Source: a virus. Taken from it: a stretch of DNA of 29,934 bases. The notes under the pieces are model-generated. The model made no database searches. It was not told where the DNA came from and saw only the letters and a list, made by a program, of their open reading frames with translations. Within the stretch, counting starts at the first letter, position 1. Every line of letters starts with the position of its first letter. The translations under genes were made by a program, and so were the position numbers. This document shows, in pieces, positions 5,004 through 29,782 of this stretch. The DNA lies in the IMG/VR virus record IMGVR_UViG_3300037488_000376, positions 1 to 29,934 of that record. One strand, written 5' to 3'.

Positions 5004-7076
5004 TTATAGGTGAGATTGATCTATTATCTTTTGACGTGCCTCTAATGCGTTTGCTACGTTGCCCGCAAGTACATAGGTCTCAGTGCTACCTGGTGCGTTA
5101 ACTTGCATGTTAGCTCCGCTGAAATCTATAGCAGGTGCGTTATTGCCTGTAGGTGCATTTAGATTGCCATTGCCTCCACCTGCGCCACCGCCACCAAATT
5201 GAGTTTGGTTTATCTTAACAATATTAGCTATTCCTGCTGCTGCTACTGCTGCTGCTTTCACGAAGTTCATACCTGTTAAGGTATCTTGTGGTACAGCTAA
5301 CTGCTGAACAATACCCGCAGCCATGGCTATGGTAGCCTGAGCTTTCTGCATTAACTTGTTTCTCTCAAATGTTTTGCGCTGGCTAGCCTCATCTCCCTTA
5401 GCTGCTGCCTGATTTAAATTCATTAAAGCATCTAAGCCAAGCGAAGCCATCTCAAAGTTTGCTGAAATATTAGCCATCCGTAACTCTTGCTCCTCTTCTA
5501 ATTTTTTCTTTTTTTCATCTAAGGCTTTTTGATCTGCTTCTTTTGCCTTTTCATCTGCATCTTTTTTTCTAGCTACTTCTGCATCTGCATATTTCTTTAC
5601 AATTTCTGCCTCAGCTTTGGCTTGAGAATCTATAAATAATAACTGCTGTGCGCTACCTTCCTCAGCAAGATTAATGAGCTCAAAATATTTATTTCGTACT
5701 GCATCTATTTCTTTCTCCTGAGCTGTTAATGTTAATTGATAAGCCTCTTCTGCTAATCTCTCCTCTTCGTTTAATTTATCTTCTCTTGTTTGTTTTTCAA
5801 ATGCAGCTCTTTCCTGATCTCTCTTAAGTTGTTCTGCTGCTGCTGCTTCTCTGTTTTTAGTGGCTTCATCTTGTGCTTGCTTAGCTGTTTTTCTAGCATC
5901 TTCTGCTTCATCAGCTTTAGCTTTGGCAGCATCAGCATCCATTTTTTTAATAGATAATTGCATACCTGCATAATCACTCTCCATTTGCTTAATCTCAGTT
6001 CTTTGTTTATCAAAGGAAGCTTTAAGCTCTGTTTCCTGTGCAGCAGGATCTATGAATAAATTAGCAACCATTTGACTGCCTGCTATAGTTAACTTACTTA
6101 TCTCATCATTTAAATTTAATGCAGTTATTGTTCCAAATCCAAGAGCTTCACTAACTTTATTCGCTGTTGCTAAAATCATATCAACAGGAGCAGCTAACAG
6201 TCTTAATGTTAACGCACCTGCTTCTAGGCCAGCTCTTAATACTTGCTGTATAATTGAATTATTCCGCTTGCTTGCATCAATTTGAGATTTTGCCTGAGAC
6301 TCTTGTATATCTAAATTGACTTTACCATTCTTTATAGATGTTTCAAGCCTCTTCATGTTTATCTGCAAAATCTCTTTCTCACTTTTGCCCTGTAACCTTA
6401 AAGAGTTTTCCTCTAGCTTTCCATTATCATACGCTTTTTTAGATGCATCAGCTTGAGCTTGTGCATTTTTAGCTATGCTTCTTTGCTGCTCATCTATACC
6501 GGTTAACGCATTTTCAAGTGATGGAAAGAGTTTTATTAATGTATCGAAATTCATAGCAATAGCTATAAGTATGGCCGATATTAATAATATTGGATTAGCT
6601 AAAATGGCTTTACCTAATGCTTTGAATGCATTAATTCCTGCATCACTCATTGACTTTAAGCCCTTGCTGATATCCTCGGGCTTAAGCCTTGCTAAGTTAG
6701 CACTAACTAAATTTAATGATTGACTTAAGCCGTCAAAATCTAAGTTCATCATCTGCTCACCCATCATTCCGAATGATGCTCTAGCTCCTTCAATAGCAGG
6801 GCCTGTATTACCTTTAACAGCATCAGCTGCATCATTCATTCTATCCTTAAGCTCACCCATTTGGAGTGAAAGCTTTTTAAACTTCTCAGTGCCTGGATCC
6901 ATCTGATCCTGCTGCTTCTTTAATTCAGCATATTGAGCCTTAAGAGTTTTTGTGGATTTCTCTAATTCAATAGTGGTTTCATCAGTTTTAGTAAGAGCTT
7001 TATTTATATCCTCTAATCCTGTGAATGTGCCCTCATCATCAAATGAGAGCTTTAATATCATATCTTGTGTAGCCAT
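5004..7076 (-). CDS. Tail tape measure protein
   Basis: The product has 690 residues. It has the classic layout: an N-terminal coiled coil (~residues 20-90), a hydrophobic stretch (ALGKAILANPILLISAILIA, ~155-175), a long Lys/Glu/Ala coiled coil (~370-530), a second hydrophobic Ala-rich zone (~590-620) and a Gly/Asn-rich C-terminus (GGGGAGGGNGN). Tape measure proteins set tail length and are ejected ahead of the DNA. At the usual ~0.15 nm per residue the tail would be roughly 100 nm long. The ATG at 7074-7076 shares bases with the stop of the small upstream gene. No lysozyme or peptidase motif is evident. Confidence 0.85.
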   Translation of the reverse strand: MATQDMILKLSFDDEGTFTGLEDINKALTKTDETTIELEKSTKTLKAQYAELKKQQDQMDPGTEKFKKLSLQMGELKDRMNDAADAVKGNTGPAIEGARASFGMMGEQMMNLDFDGLSQSLNLVSANLARLKPEDISKGLKSMSDAGINAFKALGKAILANPILLISAILIAIAMNFDTLIKLFPSLENALTGIDEQQRSIAKNAQAQADASKKAYDNGKLEENSLRLQGKSEKEILQINMKRLETSIKNGKVNLDIQESQAKSQIDASKRNNSIIQQVLRAGLEAGALTLRLLAAPVDMILATANKVSEALGFGTITALNLNDEISKLTIAGSQMVANLFIDPAAQETELKASFDKQRTEIKQMESDYAGMQLSIKKMDADAAKAKADEAEDARKTAKQAQDEATKNREAAAAEQLKRDQERAAFEKQTREDKLNEEERLAEEAYQLTLTAQEKEIDAVRNKYFELINLAEEGSAQQLLFIDSQAKAEAEIVKKYADAEVARKKDADEKAKEADQKALDEKKKKLEEEQELRMANISANFEMASLGLDALMNLNQAAAKGDEASQRKTFERNKLMQKAQATIAMAAGIVQQLAVPQDTLTGMNFVKAAAVAAAGIANIVKINQTQFGGGGAGGGNGNLNAPTGNNAPAIDFSGANMQVNAPGSTETYVLAGNVANALEARQKIIDQSHL

Positions 7077-10344: not shown

Positions 10345-11624
10345 TATGCTGTGTAATCGTTACTGAATTTTAACATCAATTCTAAATCATTCTTAACGTA
10401 GCTACGTGATTTAATTGCAGTGTAGTTATTGCTATCAATTACTACGGGAGTAGCTTCGCCCTTATTACTAATGATGTAAACTGATTCAGAGTAAATCAGA
10501 TTCTTAAGGTATTCAAATTGTCCTTCAGTTAAGAAGTCAGTTCTAATTCTTAGCATCTTCTCTACAAATGGGCTGCGCTCTGTTAGCCCTCTATCGTACG
10601 TGTTAAATCCAAACGCTGTAGTTTCGTCTGCTGTGCCGTAGTTACCTACTACCTTCCTGTAGCGCTTGCGCTCCACTGAGTAACTTTCCTCAGAGCGTTT
10701 AGTAAAATTGAAATAGTCCCATCCACCTCGGCTGTTAGTCCAGCCTAGTCTCACCTTATCGAATCTGCACTCGTCATCTGCTTTGAATACAGCTATTGAT
10801 CGTGCAGTTGCTGAGCCTCCTGCATTTCTAAAGTTAATTAGGTAGTGATGCCATGTAGCTTGCAAGCCGAAAATATCATCTATGTTAGCAGGTAGTAGGG
10901 GAAGATGGTTAATAGTGCCTGCTGCAATTACACATGCTAGCGTATCGGTTTGGATAGGTGTGCCTGCTGCATTGAATTGCACTATCTGAATGTCATCTAT
11001 AGCATTACCCGTTAAAGTAGAGCCGTCATCAGCAGGAATAGTAAGCACTCCCCAATCATCTTCAAACCCTGTTATGCCTATCGTGTTAGCGCCCAAAGAG
11101 TATTGGCTTAATACATCATCCATTGCATAGGTGCTTCGATATAAATCACTCATGATTTGACTACCGCTGCCGTTTAATGCAAAGTAATCAGATGGATCAG
11201 GATTAAACCCATCACTAATCTGAAAAGCTGCATTGATTAATGCGCTGCCATCTAGTGGATAAGTAGTGGCCTGCACTGTGAATAAGCCTAGCACCTCATA
11301 GCCCTCTTGTATAATTGTGCTAATGCCCAAAATATTACGCGAGGTAGCAGCATCTTGCACCGTTATGGATGCAAATAGAGAAGGTACAGCATCTGTGCTG
11401 TTTACTCCTAAATCCATTGCCTGATTCACTACAGGGTTAAGGTCAAATACTAACGCACCTGATAAGTTAGGCTGCACGTAAAAGATATTAGTAGTAGTGC
11501 CATTGCTTACCGTTATCACATAGCGAAAGCCAGGCTGCCCTATGTTAGTTGACGTAGCCACTACTATAAGCTTTTGCTTTAGTGCTGTAAATATGTAGGG
11601 CTGCTGCTGTATTGTAATAGCCAT
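10344..11624 (-). CDS. Distal tail / baseplate protein
   Basis: The product has 426 residues and no membrane segment. It is beta-rich in the first half (MAITIQQQPYIFTALKQKLI), and the C-terminal third has a basic, aromatic segment (RLGWTNSRGGWDYFNFTKRS, ~292-311) followed by a domain ending LMLKFSNDYTA. Proteins of this kind stand immediately before the large tail-tip protein in many Bacteroidota siphoviruses, and a distal-tail or baseplate role is inferred. Overlap of stop and start with both neighbours (1 base each) suggests tight coupling. I cannot name a precise family. Confidence 0.6.
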   Translation of the reverse strand: MAITIQQQPYIFTALKQKLIVVATSTNIGQPGFRYVITVSNGTTTNIFYVQPNLSGALVFDLNPVVNQAMDLGVNSTDAVPSLFASITVQDAATSRNILGISTIIQEGYEVLGLFTVQATTYPLDGSALINAAFQISDGFNPDPSDYFALNGSGSQIMSDLYRSTYAMDDVLSQYSLGANTIGITGFEDDWGVLTIPADDGSTLTGNAIDDIQIVQFNAAGTPIQTDTLACVIAAGTINHLPLLPANIDDIFGLQATWHHYLINFRNAGGSATARSIAVFKADDECRFDKVRLGWTNSRGGWDYFNFTKRSEESYSVERKRYRKVVGNYGTADETTAFGFNTYDRGLTERSPFVEKMLRIRTDFLTEGQFEYLKNLIYSESVYIISNKGEATPVVIDSNNYTAIKSRSYVKNDLELMLKFSNDYTA

Positions 11625-12247
11625 TATGCTGGTTTAATATTAGTTAGTTTTCTCGTTTGATTTAAGATGTAGATGTAGACAGCTTCGGCCATTGCAGCGT
11701 TCAGCTGAGGCCCGTAATCAGGTAAGGTTTCTAAATAGGCATCTCTCCAATAATATAGCGGAGCAATACCTTTCTTTTCAATACTCTTAGCCATTGCATT
11801 AGCTACTCTTCTACGCTGATCTTCATCTTTGTTAGTTGCGCTCTTAGCAAACTTAGTCATCTTGCCCGTCTCACCCATAGCACGTAGCTTAATCTTCTTT
11901 AGATTCATCCAATTAAGGATAGCTTCTACCGGAGGCTTAGCTGCTCCTGCTGCGAATCTTGTATCTATCCCTTTGTAATTACTCTCCTTACCTTGTCTAC
12001 CATACTCTACCCATGCTGCATAAGCAGCAGTAGAGCCAAAGCCTATAGATGGAGTAGCACCGCTAACATCTAAGTCATAATAAAGGGAAGCTGCTAGCGT
12101 TCCTGTTGTGTTAGCCTTTCTTTTCTTGCCGTATCTCGTTTGCTGGATGCGGATATTTGAGCGTGCGCTTTCTGTTACGGATTCCCCGAAATCTAAAAGC
12201 ACATCGTATAGCGCTCCTTGTTCAAACAGCTCAGCTAAGATGCTCAT
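11624..12247 (-). CDS. HK97 gp10-like head-tail joining / tail completion protein
   Basis: The product has 207 residues. The core segment STAAYAAWVEYGRQGKE (~72-88), followed by AAGAAKPPVEAILNWMNLKK (~100-119) and a helix with RRVANAMAKSIEKKGIAP, is the pattern of HK97 gp10-like proteins: a strand-turn with EYG, a PP-rich helix cap and an Ala-rich helix before a KGI/P motif. Such proteins sit at the neck or tail terminator and stop tail growth. The start shares ATGA with the tiny gene upstream. Family membership is by motif recognition. Confidence 0.7.
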   Translation of the reverse strand: MSILAELFEQGALYDVLLDFGESVTESARSNIRIQQTRYGKKRKANTTGTLAASLYYDLDVSGATPSIGFGSTAAYAAWVEYGRQGKESNYKGIDTRFAAGAAKPPVEAILNWMNLKKIKLRAMGETGKMTKFAKSATNKDEDQRRRVANAMAKSIEKKGIAPLYYWRDAYLETLPDYGPQLNAAMAEAVYIYILNQTRKLTNIKPA

Positions 12248-12366
12248 TCCTCTTCAGGTACTTCTTCAGTTACTGTTGTATAATTTCCCCACTCAATAGC
12301 TTCCGCTTCGTTGAGCGTTTCGATGTAACCGTTTTCGGTTATCATTCTATACTTTGTGATTATCAT
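12244..12366 (-). CDS. 40-residue acidic tail-module microprotein
   Basis: The frame runs from ATG 12364-12366 to TGA 12244-12246 and encodes MIITKYRMITENGYIETLNE then a short acidic end (…VPEEE). It overlaps the stop of the receptor-binding protein gene (ATGA) and the start of the gp10-like gene (ATGA), so it exactly fills the gap between them. That double coupling and its unusually acidic C-terminus support a real gene although it is tiny. The function is unknown; small proteins after fibre genes can be fibre chaperones, which is only a suggestion here. Confidence 0.65.
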   Translation of the reverse strand: MIITKYRMITENGYIETLNEAEAIEWGNYTTVTEEVPEEE

Positions 12367-14816
12367 GTGCGAGGTGTTGTTAATACGTTTTCATATCCTA
12401 AATAGTCGCAAAATACACTTCTACTTGTTGTTCCTATTGTTTTAGCAATGGACTGCTTTACATTAAATCCACGAGGATTATTGGCAGCAAGCCATTTAGG
12501 AATATTGGTTGTATGCGTTGCTGCTAAAGTGCCGTTAATATAGAAAGCAACTGAAGTAGCTGCTGCATTAACTTCTATTCTTAATTTAGTCCAAGCACCA
12601 GCAGTTACTACTGATGTAGTTGTAGTAAGTGTGCGAACAGCACTTACTGAAGTAACACATTGCCAGTTCGGAGTAGCGGCAGTTCCGTTTTGAGTTGCGC
12701 CTTCATCGTATGTAAAAAACGCTCCGTTTGTATCAGCTCCATTTGTCGGTGCATTACCAAAACCACTAACAAATCTAAATCTGTTTGCAGCATCTGATAA
12801 AGTTTCTACATTCACGAATGTTTCAAATACCCAAGAGCCACCTCCAAAGAAAAATTGTGCAGTAATAAATCCTTCGTTTGTGTGTGTAGCGTAAGCCGTT
12901 GCCGTTGTTCCTGTTTGATATTGACAAAATCCTATTTGATTAATTGTTGCATTTGGTATAGTCGTTACTTGTCGAATAACACTTGCGCCTGTGCCACTTG
13001 TAAATTGTGTAAAATTTGGTGTTAAAGTAGCTGTATTATCAAAGTCGGTAAAATACTGAATGCCTCTTTTAAACTTATCAATAAAAGACAATCCATTTAC
13101 CGCGTCAACGGTTGGAAATTTAACGCCTGTACCGTCTACTGCTAACGAGTTCTGTTTGTTAGCTGAATCTTCTTTAGCGTTAAACGCACTCCAATCCGCA
13201 GAACTCAATGCGCCTCTGTTCGCTGCGCTTGCAGTAGGTAAATTGAAGGTGTGTGTACTTGTTGCAGATGAGATAGCGAAGTCTGTTCCACTTGTACCCG
13301 TTGCGAAGTTTTGCACCTGTGCCGTTAAGCCATTCAATGCAGTTAATCCAGTTGAGAATGTAGTAATGACTTGGCATAAATGACTATTCTCAGTGTGAAG
13401 TTTAATCGTTCTGCCTGAGTGCGTGACGTAGATTCTTATTGCTAGTCTATCGGTTGCTGCTAACGTTGTTTGTGGAACTGCTAACGCGCTTACATACAAA
13501 TCTATTGCTGTTCCATTCGTAATGCCTTCTGGAGTAGCTGAGTTAGATGCAATTAAAGATAATGTTGCACCATTCCACTTGTATAACTCCACGTAAAATG
13601 AAGGAGTGCCTCCGTTACTCGAAGCGCTGAAATATGTTTCAAAATTCCAATTCCCTGCGGGTATCTCTAATAAGTTTGGAACGTTTGCATCTGTTATAAA
13701 ACTTTGAATATAACCATTCGCGTTTATTGTGAAATCAGTACCTGCACCAAAGACAGGTGTTCTATCCATTTCTTTGAAAGCCACACCGCCAAATGTACCT
13801 TGTGCTACTGATCCATTTAAGTAGAAAGATAATGAAGCACCGCCGCCTGTTGACGATGGGAAGTTAGCTAAGCTACCATCACCTCTCACATATTGCGATA
13901 CTACACCTGCTCCTGTAACCGCTATATCTCCCGAACTTGTAATGGGACTATTTGCTACACTAAATGCGGAAGGCATTGTTAAGCCTACGCTTGTAACTGT
14001 GCCTGTAGGTAAAGTAGGTAAGTTATCTAAATCATTATAATCGTTGCTAAAAGCAGTAGCTCCTAAATCAGCAGTGTTAGCTTTTAGCGCTATAGTATCT
14101 AACAGATAAACTATATCATCTGTGATAGAAATTATAACAGCACAATCGGGTAAAGTCTCACAAGTAAGGCCGATGTTATCTACTATTGCATACCATCCCT
14201 TTACTCCTGATGCATTAGTACCATAGTAGTAAGAATTACCCGGTGCCTCTTGATCATTATCTAAGCTAACAAATACACCATCTTGGTGCAAGCTCTCAAT
14301 AAATTGCAGCGCTCCGAATCCATCGGATGGCGAATTTGTAGGTGTATTATAGTTCCAACTTGCAGGAATAGAGCATGCGCTCCAATCGTAATCTAAGCTG
14401 AGCTCTATTATCCCCGTAACTCCCGTTAGCGTGTGAGTGTATTGCTCAACGAATGGCTCAGAGTTTACAGGTCTAGTTAGCACTACGTCATCACCGAACA
14501 TATTGCCCAAGTGAATCTCGTTAATTAAATCTTGAAAGATTAATGAGCAGTCAGTAATACTCTCTGCCTGATAGCCTGTCTTATCTTCCTTATCTCTTGG
14601 CAGATCAGAGATAAATATCTCAAAACTGAAAGCTCTTGTACCTGGCGAATAGTTAATGGCTCTTGGCTTAACGTGCATCCATGGCCACTCAGCTTCTTTC
14701 TCTAAATCGGCTTGGCTTATCTCACCATGCGTAAACCTTCTCAGTTGAAAGTGCCCATCTGCGAATTGTCTAAACCTATCTACTATTACGTTGTACGTAT
14801 AATTAATTGTGCTCAT
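12363..14816 (-). CDS. Receptor-binding tail fibre with N-terminal tail-completion domain and C-terminal lectin-like domain
   Basis: The product has 817 residues in three parts. Residues 1-155 (with HVKPRAINYSPGTRAFSFEI and CSLIFQDLINEI) resemble a stand-alone ~150-residue tail protein of Bacteroidota phages, possibly tail terminator-like. Residues ~265-560 are fibre sequence with VTSVGLTMPSAFSVANSPIT, YVRGDGSLANFP and RGALSSADWSAFNAKED, repeats common in phage fibres, interrupted by a beta-sandwich-like segment (~330-485). Residues ~585-817 read like a concanavalin/LamG jelly-roll, with AGAWTKLRIEVNAAATSVAF near the expected strand. It probably recognises surface glycan. The sequential fusion suggests domain exchange in the C-terminus. 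Confidence 0.75.
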   Translation of the reverse strand: MSTINYTYNVIVDRFRQFADGHFQLRRFTHGEISQADLEKEAEWPWMHVKPRAINYSPGTRAFSFEIFISDLPRDKEDKTGYQAESITDCSLIFQDLINEIHLGNMFGDDVVLTRPVNSEPFVEQYTHTLTGVTGIIELSLDYDWSACSIPASWNYNTPTNSPSDGFGALQFIESLHQDGVFVSLDNDQEAPGNSYYYGTNASGVKGWYAIVDNIGLTCETLPDCAVIISITDDIVYLLDTIALKANTADLGATAFSNDYNDLDNLPTLPTGTVTSVGLTMPSAFSVANSPITSSGDIAVTGAGVVSQYVRGDGSLANFPSSTGGGASLSFYLNGSVAQGTFGGVAFKEMDRTPVFGAGTDFTINANGYIQSFITDANVPNLLEIPAGNWNFETYFSASSNGGTPSFYVELYKWNGATLSLIASNSATPEGITNGTAIDLYVSALAVPQTTLAATDRLAIRIYVTHSGRTIKLHTENSHLCQVITTFSTGLTALNGLTAQVQNFATGTSGTDFAISSATSTHTFNLPTASAANRGALSSADWSAFNAKEDSANKQNSLAVDGTGVKFPTVDAVNGLSFIDKFKRGIQYFTDFDNTATLTPNFTQFTSGTGASVIRQVTTIPNATINQIGFCQYQTGTTATAYATHTNEGFITAQFFFGGGSWVFETFVNVETLSDAANRFRFVSGFGNAPTNGADTNGAFFTYDEGATQNGTAATPNWQCVTSVSAVRTLTTTTSVVTAGAWTKLRIEVNAAATSVAFYINGTLAATHTTNIPKWLAANNPRGFNVKQSIAKTIGTTSRSVFCDYLGYENVLTTPRT

Positions 14817-14831
14817 ATCTTATAGTGTAAA

Positions 14832-15095
14832 TTAAGACAGCTTTTGTTGTGCTGAGTTAGCATAGTCCATCGCGTAGGTCAAATGGGTGAATATAGTTGT
14901 GGCTCTTGTGTTGGTTATGGCATCGAACTTAGTTACATCTCTCTCACACATCTCCTCTATTACATGCCACCACTGATAGACGCTTGCTAGTGTTTCACCT
15001 CTTCTGCTAGTTGACTGATCTGAGTCCTCAGCTTCTCCAGCTCCGCTTCTAAATATTCGGGTGTACTGTTCACTAAATCGTTTCTGAGTGTCGAA
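14832..15095 (-). CDS. -1 frame extension of the tail assembly chaperone (gpT-like part)
   Basis: After the T9 run the -1 frame encodes 87 residues, ending at TAA 14832-14834. The total fusion is 246 residues (159 before the shift and 87 after). The first ~35 codons overlap the 0-frame tail of the short product; the last ~50, containing QWWHVIEEMCERD and TIFTHLTYAMDYANSAQQ, look like a folded helical domain of the type seen at the end of such fusion chaperones. No ATG with a plausible role opens this frame independently. Without the shift the stretch 14832-14986 would be non-coding, unlike the rest of this compact operon. Confidence 0.65.
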   Translation of the reverse strand, partial: FDTQKRFSEQYTRIFRSGAGEAEDSDQSTSRRGETLASVYQWWHVIEEMCERDVTKFDAITNTRATTIFTHLTYAMDYANSAQQKLS

Positions 15096-15571
15096 AAAAA
15101 AAGCAGCGCAGCATTAACATTAGCTAGATTCATCTTGCGCATCTGAGGTACGTACTTCATGTGAGTAGTGCTATCATACTCCTCTATCTTGTACTGCAAA
15201 TTAATCTCAGCTGTTACCGGTCTATAAAGAATGCACATTAGCTCAGGCATCTGATGGGGAAAGTTCTTACTAAACTCAGATAGGTCTAACCACTCTCCAA
15301 AGGTCATGCTCTTTAAATCAGGATGAAAGCCAAACTTAACCCCATCTATCTCTATGAATTTAGCAAATATCTTCTCATCGTTACGCAAGCCCTCAGCATA
15401 GGCATTCACTATCTTATCAATAGTAGGCATGTCTATCTTTCTGATGTCATCGCGCTTCAATCCTGTGATAGCAGAAATCTGAGAAACGCTATCTGTGCCT
15501 GCTGCTACAAAGTCTACGTAGGTCCCTAGCGTTTGATCTGAATACTTAGTGCTTATTATCTTCTCGCTCAT
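14987..15571 (-). CDS. Tail assembly chaperone, short (0-frame) product
   Basis: The product has 194 residues, soluble and without membrane segments. Residues ~77-125 (KFGFHPDLKSMTFGEWLDLS, then MCILYRPVTAEINLQYKIEE) fit a tail assembly chaperone family of Bacteroidota phages. A helical region and ALLFFSTLRND follow. Chaperones of this type (as lambda gpG) coat the tape measure while the tail tube forms. A run of nine T at 15094-15102 inside the gene allows a -1 shift into a frame that stays open to 14832, giving a longer gpGT-like product. It is placed ahead of all tail genes, which fits. Its stop is 170 bases before the next gene start, a gap the frameshift explains. Confidence 0.75.
   Translation of the reverse strand: MSEKIISTKYSDQTLGTYVDFVAAGTDSVSQISAITGLKRDDIRKIDMPTIDKIVNAYAEGLRNDEKIFAKFIEIDGVKFGFHPDLKSMTFGEWLDLSEFSKNFPHQMPELMCILYRPVTAEINLQYKIEEYDSTTHMKYVPQMRKMNLANVNAALLFFSTLRNDLVNSTPEYLEAELEKLRTQISQLAEEVKH
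15094..15102 (-). promoter_or_regulatory. Slippery T9 run, probable -1 frameshift site
   Basis: On the coding strand codons read CTG CTT TTT TTT TCG. Nine T in a row satisfy the slippery rule X XXY YYZ as T TTT TTT, and they are also long enough for RNA polymerase slippage. After a -1 shift the ribosome reads TTC GAC ACT and meets no stop for 87 codons. A one-base sequencing error in the homopolymer is the main alternative and would make a single fused gene. Confidence 0.65.
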
Positions 15572-16892: not shown

Positions 16893-16932
16893 AATTCGGT
16901 TATTTGTATAATTGATTATTGATATTTAGCAT

Positions 16933-17082
16933 TTATGATCCACAATAAAGGCAGTCCTCATCTTCAGCTCCCTCACCAGCATTTAGAATCTTCTCACATT
17001 CTTTATCCACTTGTTCTTCACTCCAGTTAGGATGGAATACTTTTACTTGAGCCTTTAAAAAGTTATATTTATTATCAGTCAT
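16933..17082 (-). CDS. 49-residue acidic protein with C-terminal CxxC
   Basis: The frame from ATG 17080-17082 to TAA 16933-16935 encodes MTDNKYNFLKAQVKVFHPNW then a helical, acidic tail ending EDEDCLYCGS. The closing Cys-Leu-Tyr-Cys is a possible metal or redox pair. The leader is A/T-rich as for its neighbours and codon use matches the operon. It is the first gene I can support after the hairpin-rich intergenic region and so may mark the start of the late operon. The function is unknown. Confidence 0.6.
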   Translation of the reverse strand: MTDNKYNFLKAQVKVFHPNWSEEQVDKECEKILNAGEGAEDEDCLYCGS

Positions 17083-17223
17083 TTATAATTAAGATTAGTA
17101 AGATTAGTAATTAGCTTATGCATTATCTGCATATTGCTTAGTGTAATTAGCTATAAGCTTTTGCTTATTAGCTAAAGCTATTAGCTAATTAACTTAATGC
17201 TTAGAGCTTAGATGCTGAGCTAA

Positions 17224-17277
17224 ATGAGAGATAGAAGTATCCTAGCACAACTATTTCTAATTGTGTTAGGCTCTCAT
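17224..17277. repeat. Nested inverted repeat
   Basis: The outer arms ATGAGAG (17224-17230) and CTCTCAT (17271-17277) enclose the inner arms CCTAGCACAA (17241-17250) and TTGTGTTAGG (17261-17270) with a 10-base loop. The inner arms pair fully, with one G-U, only in a plus-strand RNA; in a minus-strand RNA one pair is A-C. This favours either a DNA-level element or a plus-strand transcript. Confidence 0.5.
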
Positions 17278-17489
17278 CTAAATGACTGTTCTCATGCTTG
17301 TCGCTTGAGTGCTTCGCCATTATGAATTAGTGTCATCAGCAATGTGCACTAACTTGGTATCTACCTTTTAGAGATATTGCCATCCCTAAGTAACCTGGGG
17401 CTTATACCTTAGCCATACCCCTGAGCTGTGTTACTATCCCGCAGTAGCTCAATTCATTCTTTACACTGCTGTTAAACGCTTCCCTCTGT

Positions 17490-17533
17490 AAAAAATATAG
17501 CCCTAAGGATGCAGGGTGAGAACATCCAAAGGG
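17490..17533 (-). terminator. Possible intrinsic terminator for the middle transcript
   Basis: On the minus strand a stem CCCTTTGGATG / CATCCTTAGGG (an A-A/T-T internal mismatch of two) with an 11-base loop is followed within five bases by six U (17495-17490). It lies after the small membrane protein genes and before the late genes. The two-base internal loop makes it weaker than the 22353-22379 terminator. Confidence 0.45.
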
Positions 17534-17624
17534 CGTATAAAAAACCTTAATCAAAGTACTAACAGTAATACCACCCTGTAACAAATCTATAGGTAAAAAT
17601 GTTACGAGATTCATTTGTGCAAAA

Positions 17625-17816
17625 CTATTTCTTTTGTTGAAAACGTAGCACTGTAATGTATACCCAAAAAGGAAGCCATACAAGCCCTGTAAAAGCTACA
17701 CCTAGATAAGCGTACCAATGGTAGTTAGATAGGTGCCTCTGATGTCTGTAAATGTTTAGGCTAAGTATTCCCGTATGCAGGAGGAAGCCAATTAAGTAAA
17801 TGGTTAATAGTGTCAT
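17625..17816 (-). CDS. Small two-helix membrane protein
   Basis: The product has 63 residues with two membrane helices, MTLLTIYLIGFLLHTGILSL at the N-terminus and YAYLGVAFTGLVWLPFWVYI at ~36-55, separated by a polar His/Arg loop, and a basic C-terminus RFQQKK. The gene begins 3 bases after the stop of the 59-codon membrane gene, and the two form a pair. Possible roles include superinfection exclusion or membrane anchoring of replication, but nothing in the sequence decides. The leader has the AATCAT-type A/T-rich form common here. Confidence 0.6.
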   Translation of the reverse strand: MTLLTIYLIGFLLHTGILSLNIYRHQRHLSNYHWYAYLGVAFTGLVWLPFWVYITVLRFQQKK

Positions 17817-29206: not shown

Positions 29207-29782
29207 TTAGTTAGTAAAGTTTCTAATACTAAATCTATTCCATGGATTTGCTGAATCGTTAGCACTTCTGCTAAATGCGATTTGGCTCTGTCTATTTACT
29301 ACACGAATGGGTGTAATATCAGGGCTAGTATTATTGCTATATTCAGGATAGTCTGAGTTATTAGCGCAAAGGTAATCTACTAAGCGCTGCGTATAGTAGT
29401 TAGCATTCTCACGTGCCATATCTCTTAGAGATGATAGCTCACTTTGAGAGATAGCTGTAGTGTTCTCAGATTGTCGCGTAACTAAGTTACCGTTATCATG
29501 CTTATACATCAGCATAGGATAGAGCTCCACCATGGTCCACCATGCTGTAGGCTTAACTATGTATTCATTTAGCAAAGTCTCATAGACTCCAGCTAACGTG
29601 CCGTTCTCTATCTCATTCTTAATCTTATTAGTTAGATTAGTACCTAGCCATAAAGTAATATACTTATCTTGAGCTAAGTAAATTGCAGGTCTAATTAAGT
29701 TAGTATCTACAGCCTCATTCAGCTGAGTATATTTCTTTAAGAATTCCTCGTTAATGAAAAGTATTTCGGGTGCTATTGCCAT
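29207..29782 (-). CDS. Head-tail connector (adaptor) protein
   Basis: The product has 191 residues. MAIAPEILFINEEFLKKYTQ then AVDTNLIRPAIYLAQDKYIT and LGTNLTNKIKNEIENG recall the gp6/gp15-like adaptor family of Bacteroidota phages, in which a helical bundle N-terminus is followed by a helical segment VKPTAWWTMVELYPMLMYKH. The C-terminus is Asn/Ser-rich. It begins 11 bases after the portal stop, the expected neighbour for a ring that attaches to the portal. It has no membrane segment. Call by motif and position. Confidence 0.7.
   Translation of the reverse strand: MAIAPEILFINEEFLKKYTQLNEAVDTNLIRPAIYLAQDKYITLWLGTNLTNKIKNEIENGTLAGVYETLLNEYIVKPTAWWTMVELYPMLMYKHDNGNLVTRQSENTTAISQSELSSLRDMARENANYYTQRLVDYLCANNSDYPEYSNNTSPDITPIRVVNRQSQIAFSRSANDSANPWNRFSIRNFTN

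Follow-up and report, generated by a model that had tools for sequence, protein, structure and literature searches.

A deeply conserved -1 recoding site at a run of nine or ten T in a morphogenesis gene of Bacteroidota phages

Organization of the recoded locus

The DNA analyzed in this work (hereafter the window) is the complete stretch of 29,934 nucleotides of the IMG/VR record IMGVR_UViG_3300037488_000376, which belongs to a virus of Bacteroidota bacteria. A gene on its minus strand is written in two overlapping reading frames. The features of this gene and of its surroundings are as follows:

15571-14832, minus strand: recoded gene, two overlapping frames, 0 then -1
14987..15571, minus strand: 0-frame ORF, short form of 194 aa, stop TAG at 14989-14987
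15094..15102, minus strand: candidate T9 slippage site, codons CTT TTT TTT TCG, T9 or T10 in all 288 relatives
15101-15095, minus strand: ribosomal heptamer T_TTT_TTT within T9
14832..15101, minus strand: -1 frame, adding the C-terminal part of the 246-aa long form, stop TAA at 14834-14832, with a -1-frame codon signature in 51 relatives
14987..15093, minus strand: dual-coding overlap of the 0 and -1 frames, variant density 0.41 per site versus 0.71 before and 0.60 after
14937..14978, minus strand: tryptophan-rich helix YQWWHVIEEMCERD of the -1 domain, with an invariant Trp, corresponding to the WGWY motif in relatives
12363..14816, minus strand: next gene, 817 aa, fibre-like C-terminus (SO2946-like_C), start 18 nt after the first base of the -1 stop
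11624..12247, minus strand: HK97-gp10-like / Neck1-type protein, in conserved synteny with P12024L_43 and L195
5004..7076, minus strand: probable tape-measure protein, 690 aa, assigned by position and composition, ~7.8 kb downstream of the recoded gene

The T run had been proposed from inspection of the DNA letters alone, and re-reading of the minus strand confirmed its coordinates (15102-15094) and its register, which extends to CTG CTT TTT TTT TCG; it is the sole T run of at least 8 in the minus-strand sense within the window. Equally exact were the 87 codons for which the -1 frame stays open past T9, down to 14832, occupying the 170-bp gap ahead of the gene that starts at 14816, and the lengths of 194 and 246 aa for the short and long forms, which have their N-terminal ~159 residues in common. 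The tryptophan-rich helix described for the new C-terminus was recovered in the relatives as the WGWY motif. The statement that the second frame has no dedicated start needs a qualification: an in-frame ATG does exist at 14951-14949 (minus strand), but this codon falls within the tryptophan helix and would yield only ~39 aa.

Conservation among relatives

Relatives were collected from IMG/VR using as queries the window protein, P12024L_40, a full-length alignment, and an alignment of the N domain only, the last being free of bias towards the slip site; GTDB genome contigs were also searched (4 Bacteroidota MAG contigs). Together, the IMG/VR and GTDB contigs contain 296 loci with the N domain, 288 of them with both halves of the gene. 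The -1 offset is present in all 288, with an uninterrupted T9 in 268 and T10 in 20, and the loci with short T runs are those that a contig end cuts before the slip site. The complete genes (n = 274) fall into 76 lineages below 80% identity, 35 below 60% and 14 below 50%, and every one of these carries T9 or T10. This set includes an isolate, Nonlabens phage P12024L, whose gene is 28.8% identical and has the register CTT TTT TTT TAT with the -1 frame open. In the T10 versions within the T9 clade the extra T sits inside a codon change, and the offset is kept. The length of the fused product is tight (231-272 aa, s.d. 5.7) and that of the 0-frame product looser (167-265, s.d. 13.9); the 0 frame is open for at least 16 codons in 76 of 76 lineages, often for 54-57.

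Because all 288 relatives share the -1 offset together with a run of at least 9 T, chance is excluded, and the -1 recoding site is real, deeply conserved and previously unannotated. The original prediction of a programmed -1 frame change that would produce a short and a long form is supported by this comparison with related phages, all 288 of which keep the T run and both frames.

Coding signatures of the two frames

Variability by codon position was determined for 51 distinct sequences of the window clade. Before the run, it amounts to 0.109, 0.042 and 0.348 at the three positions of 0-frame codons, the third being the highest. After the 0-frame stop it peaks at the third positions of the -1 frame (0.325 versus 0.077 and 0.028), and in the overlap it is low at all codon positions. 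Changes silent in the 0 frame number 212 before the run, with 76 expected, and changes silent in the -1 frame number 60 in the -1-only part after the 0-frame stop, with 19 expected. Within the overlap, -1-silent changes are favoured (16 versus 9.8 expected), and changes silent in the 0 frame only are 7 versus 10 expected in the window clade. Since variant density drops to 0.41 in the overlap and -1-silent changes are in excess, the -1 frame is the more constrained frame there; the amino-acid sequence of the 0-frame tail is weakly constrained in the window clade, yet this tail is open in all lineages. In 66 of the 76 lineages scanned, the next gene begins with an ATG located -8 to +18 nt from the -1 stop, in 37 of them as ATGA; in only 8 of the 76 is this ATG near the 0-frame stop. 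At the level of sequence comparison, these patterns establish both the 0 and the -1 frame as coding. The T run itself is subject to nucleotide-level selection.

Single-frame homologues and evolution of the offset

Outside the T9 clade, a one-frame protein of 259-301 aa is encoded by the isolates Flavobacterium FPSV-D15 and laban6-1, Cellulophaga Ingeline_1, Polaribacter Leef_1, Microcystis Mea-Yong924-1 and Bacteroides BT-TP2. The hhalign comparison of the T9-clade profile with these single-frame homologues gave a full-length alignment (probability 98.7, E 3.8e-16), and at the junction in laban6-1, Ingeline_1 and the Microcystis phage L-F-F is read in frame with only T6. Since the distant homologues align over their full length, the long form corresponds, judging from these alignments, to the complete protein, which the T9 clade encodes one base out of frame. 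The same protein family is represented by three PHROGs, all labelled as of unknown function: phrog_32199 (the N domain) and phrog_38404 (the -1 part), to which P12024L_40 and P12024L_41 belong, and phrog_25418, which covers the full length in one frame in the single-frame homologues of Duneviridae. The two pieces in P12024L are annotated as separate genes and the recoding was not noted. Automated annotation splits or truncates the recoded gene, and the conserved domain is either missed or called a separate small gene, as in P12024L.

That annotation implies that translation of the -1 part starts separately, at a codon of its own that is coupled to the stop upstream, and P12024L indeed has TAATG at the 0-frame stop. 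We consider such a two-gene organization very improbable: only 8 of 76 lineages have an ATG among the 40 opening codons of the -1 frame (24 if GTG and TTG are counted), the window clade has no start codon close to the 0-frame stop, the -1 frame is conserved right from the T run onward (the FFLSFR motif), and the distant homologues are one continuous protein. Separate initiation of the -1 part was rejected on the lack of conservation of its start codon. Homopolymers are also error-prone, and a sequencing or assembly error, or phase variation at the DNA level, could in principle generate an apparent offset; the homologue in Flavobacterium phage 6H seems to carry errors of this kind. However, all 288 relatives, P12024L included, are out of frame by the same amount, and both frames evolve as coding sequence according to their codon signatures. 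Moreover, a scan of 2.9 million viral contigs with two flanking contexts revealed no family member with an in-frame T8 or T10: the T10 matches keep the offset and the T8 matches are unrelated. The constant offset and the absence of in-frame T8/T10 members argue against error or phase variation, both of which we reject as extremely improbable, and for selection that keeps the gene out of frame. The case that would have contradicted the original prediction, a family contig with 8 or 10 T and a continuous frame, was looked for in these two contexts and not found; one continuous frame is likewise absent from relatives within the T9 family and is found in the distant homologues, where it occurs without a long T run.

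Phage 6H was also considered as an example of a relative with another frame arrangement and was set aside, FPSV-D15 and other close relatives having a continuous frame of 293 aa. Its homologue (L297:10353-10927) and its tape-measure gene look frame-broken against the near-identical FPSV-D15, 2A and 23T, and the 6H record probably contains sequencing errors.

Mechanism of the frame change

The arrangement is best explained by two forms made from one gene, most likely through polymerase slippage, and working in the manner of lambda gpG/gpGT; we assign this combined reading a probability of about 0.6. RNA polymerase would slip on the T9/U9 tract and add one U, giving U10 in a fraction of the mRNAs. 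Ordinary translation of this fraction would yield the 246-aa long form and plain reading the 194-aa short form, the long form adding the conserved Trp-containing C-terminal domain reached from the -1 frame at the uninterrupted T9. Slipping of the ribosome by -1 on U_UUU_UUU may also play a part, or may be the sole cause.

The last option, in which both forms arise purely by -1 ribosomal frameshifting as in a lambda-type G/GT gene, appears possible but doubtful. The run contains, in register, an X_XXY_YYZ heptamer, the textbook -1 heptamer T_TTT_TTT, and this heptamer is perfect in L197 as well as in the usual registers of T9 and T10. In E. coli, both U_UUU_UUU and U_UUU_UUC rank among the better ribosomal heptamers (PMC4066793), and low-level, unstimulated -1 shifting is used by tail genes of tailed phages (PMC5009743). 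These heptamer efficiencies are E. coli values, which may not hold in Bacteroidota. In E. coli, U_UUU_UUU is far less shift-prone than A_AAA_AAG (PMC5009743). The behaviour of the run also speaks against the ribosome alone. The run is never shorter than 9 T in the 288 loci, whichever of three codon registers it occupies. In L197 the following codon begins with C, yet the run is again nine long, a T on the other side being supplied by the codon before it, TTT. At the last base of the heptamer, where the change from TTT to TTC is silent in both frames and would leave U_UUU_UUC, on which the ribosome should still shift, T is found in 65 of 65 lineages and C in none, whereas the other doubly silent sites of the overlap show 64 T and 29 C (29/93 C; Fisher p = 2.8e-8, uncorrected for ancestry and overstated, as the lineages are related). 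The constant minimum of nine and the missing C favour slippage of RNA polymerase from U9 to U10, although the encoded amino acids, in one frame or in both, also hold several T's of the run in place, which makes conservation of length less than fully independent evidence. T runs longer than 8 lie in the documented range of transcriptional realignment (PMC3711429; PMC5009743), and programmed cases are characterized by a T or A homopolymer without interruption, at least 8-9 long, which is present here as 9 or 10 T in the 288 loci, in several registers.

On these sequence patterns, we infer that RNA polymerase somewhat more probably than otherwise takes part in the slipping. The frame change of the original prediction was upheld and its attribution to the ribosome is less certain, as a run of 9-10 in several registers fits polymerase at least as well. 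For the Bacteroidota phage clade as a whole, the odds seem about even that polymerase slippage, not the ribosome, sets the short:long ratio and that a run length of 9-10, never in frame, is the selected element.

No stimulatory RNA structure was detected around the run in 46 lineages (mean z +0.28 downstream and +0.30 upstream). This result does not discriminate between the two machines, because low-level tail-gene sites need no 3' stimulator and lambda-type tail sites are likewise without one. Elsewhere, long T runs showed no depletion; roughly half of the remaining T9-T10 runs resemble intrinsic terminators and, in some lineages, lie just upstream of the gene. In L162, L164, L169, L170, L172, L209 and L212 a hairpin followed by T9-T10, resembling an intrinsic terminator, is located ~40-57 nt upstream of the recoded gene, which, given this element directly upstream, probably starts its own transcript in these lineages.

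Homopolymers of at least 9 T or A that give two length variants, as in the window, are known in Shigella mxiE/spa13, Thermus dnaX and Citrobacter tssM1 (PMC5009743, PMC4256274). The Citrobacter gene is a close analogue: its frame change restores a C-terminal domain that homologues encode in a single frame, and the ratio of the forms matters (PMC4256274). These are bacterial genes, whereas the window gene is a phage morphogenesis gene that is conserved across a large clade.

Possible function of the recoded protein

The morphogenesis module has the order terminase, recoded gene, phrog_30964, HK97-gp10-like protein, two larger proteins, tape measure and XkdF-like protease. Gene order in the window is of the same kind, with the fibre-like 817-aa gene next to the recoded gene, which is the first of the module after terminase; the tape measure follows four genes on. 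The 690-aa ORF at 5004..7076 had no match in the PHROG search, and the genes at the equivalent place in P12024L and L195, where the tape measure is the last of the module, match tape-measure PHROGs. In Cellulophaga Ingeline_1 the homologue follows the portal/DUF6712 adaptor and precedes the tape measure, from which two genes separate it.

The likeness to gpG/gpGT stems from the two length variants in a morphogenesis setting. Both systems have a short form and a -1-frame extension, lie ahead of the tape measure within the morphogenesis region and show no obvious stimulator; the conserved -1 change with short and long forms typical of lambda-type G/GT genes is found in 288 of 288 loci, with the dual-frame coding signature. 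Lambda-type G/GT chaperones are absent from virions, their G part binding the tape measure and their T part the tail tube, and the two forms described here would similarly act as a non-virion tail-assembly factor for which the short:long ratio matters. The systems differ in the slippery element (T9/T10 rather than the GGGAAAG of lambda G/GT), in the continuous long frame of the distant homologues, and in position: in lambda-type phages the gene stands between the major tail protein and the tape measure, lambda T abutting H, whereas the window gene does not adjoin the tape measure. The expectation that the gene holds the same relative place as lambda G/GT is therefore borne out for the upstream location and not for adjacency.

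No homology between the recoded protein and lambda G or T was detected (probabilities 0.3% and 0.1%), nor any match to annotated PHROG or Pfam families. The best Foldseek match to an annotated tail chaperone had only E = 0.19, sequence and fold searches of the PDB returned nothing, including for the N domain, and the BFVD fold search found unnamed relatives only. AlphaFold modelled the short form with 41 relatives at a mean pLDDT of 85.8, with beta strands in the N domain, and the -1 domain alone poorly (pLDDT 60). Since lambda-type chaperones are themselves highly divergent, the absence of sequence or fold similarity to known chaperones is weak evidence.

It is quite conceivable that the frame change is real and the product is instead a connector, neck or head-completion factor. 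In the T9 clade the gene is flanked by terminase and neck-type genes, in Ingeline_1 it follows the DUF6712 adaptor, and in the window it is far from the tape measure; similarity to known chaperones is lacking, and homologues in other phages form one long frame. On the other hand, two length variants in a fixed arrangement across a clade are typical of G/GT genes, and in those examined isolates that have an annotated tape measure near by, this gene precedes it. Of the chaperone proposed originally, the short/long arrangement holds, and the chaperone identity is less certain. A gpG/gpGT-like mode of action is slightly favoured as the leading functional idea, and an assembly role is plausible by analogy; we do not file the gene as a member of that family.

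Implications and additional observations

In tailed phages, the balance between two forms of a tail-assembly protein is usually adjusted by slipping of the ribosome. The signature described here suggests that the problem of the short:long ratio may be solved at transcription in a clade of Bacteroidota phages. In the literature covered, only general reviews and surveys turned up on tail chaperones with transcriptional slippage, and the novelty of a polymerase-slipped tail-chaperone-like gene is provisional because coverage of the literature was incomplete. The 76 natural variants and the single-frame relatives provide material for testing which factors determine the ratio and why the phages require it.

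Several other features of the window were observed. The portal gene (2-1759) continues beyond the low end of the window, and the DUF6712 adaptor is found at the high end (29207-29782), so the genome is probably circular and the IMG/VR record opens it between these two genes. A stretch of ~0.9 kb (16900-17800) that separates the small-terminase region from the gene at 18.0 kb contains only short ORFs. Another possible site of polymerase slippage is an A10 run at 603-612 on the minus strand (SEEKKKTN), inside the portal-like ORF 1759-2.
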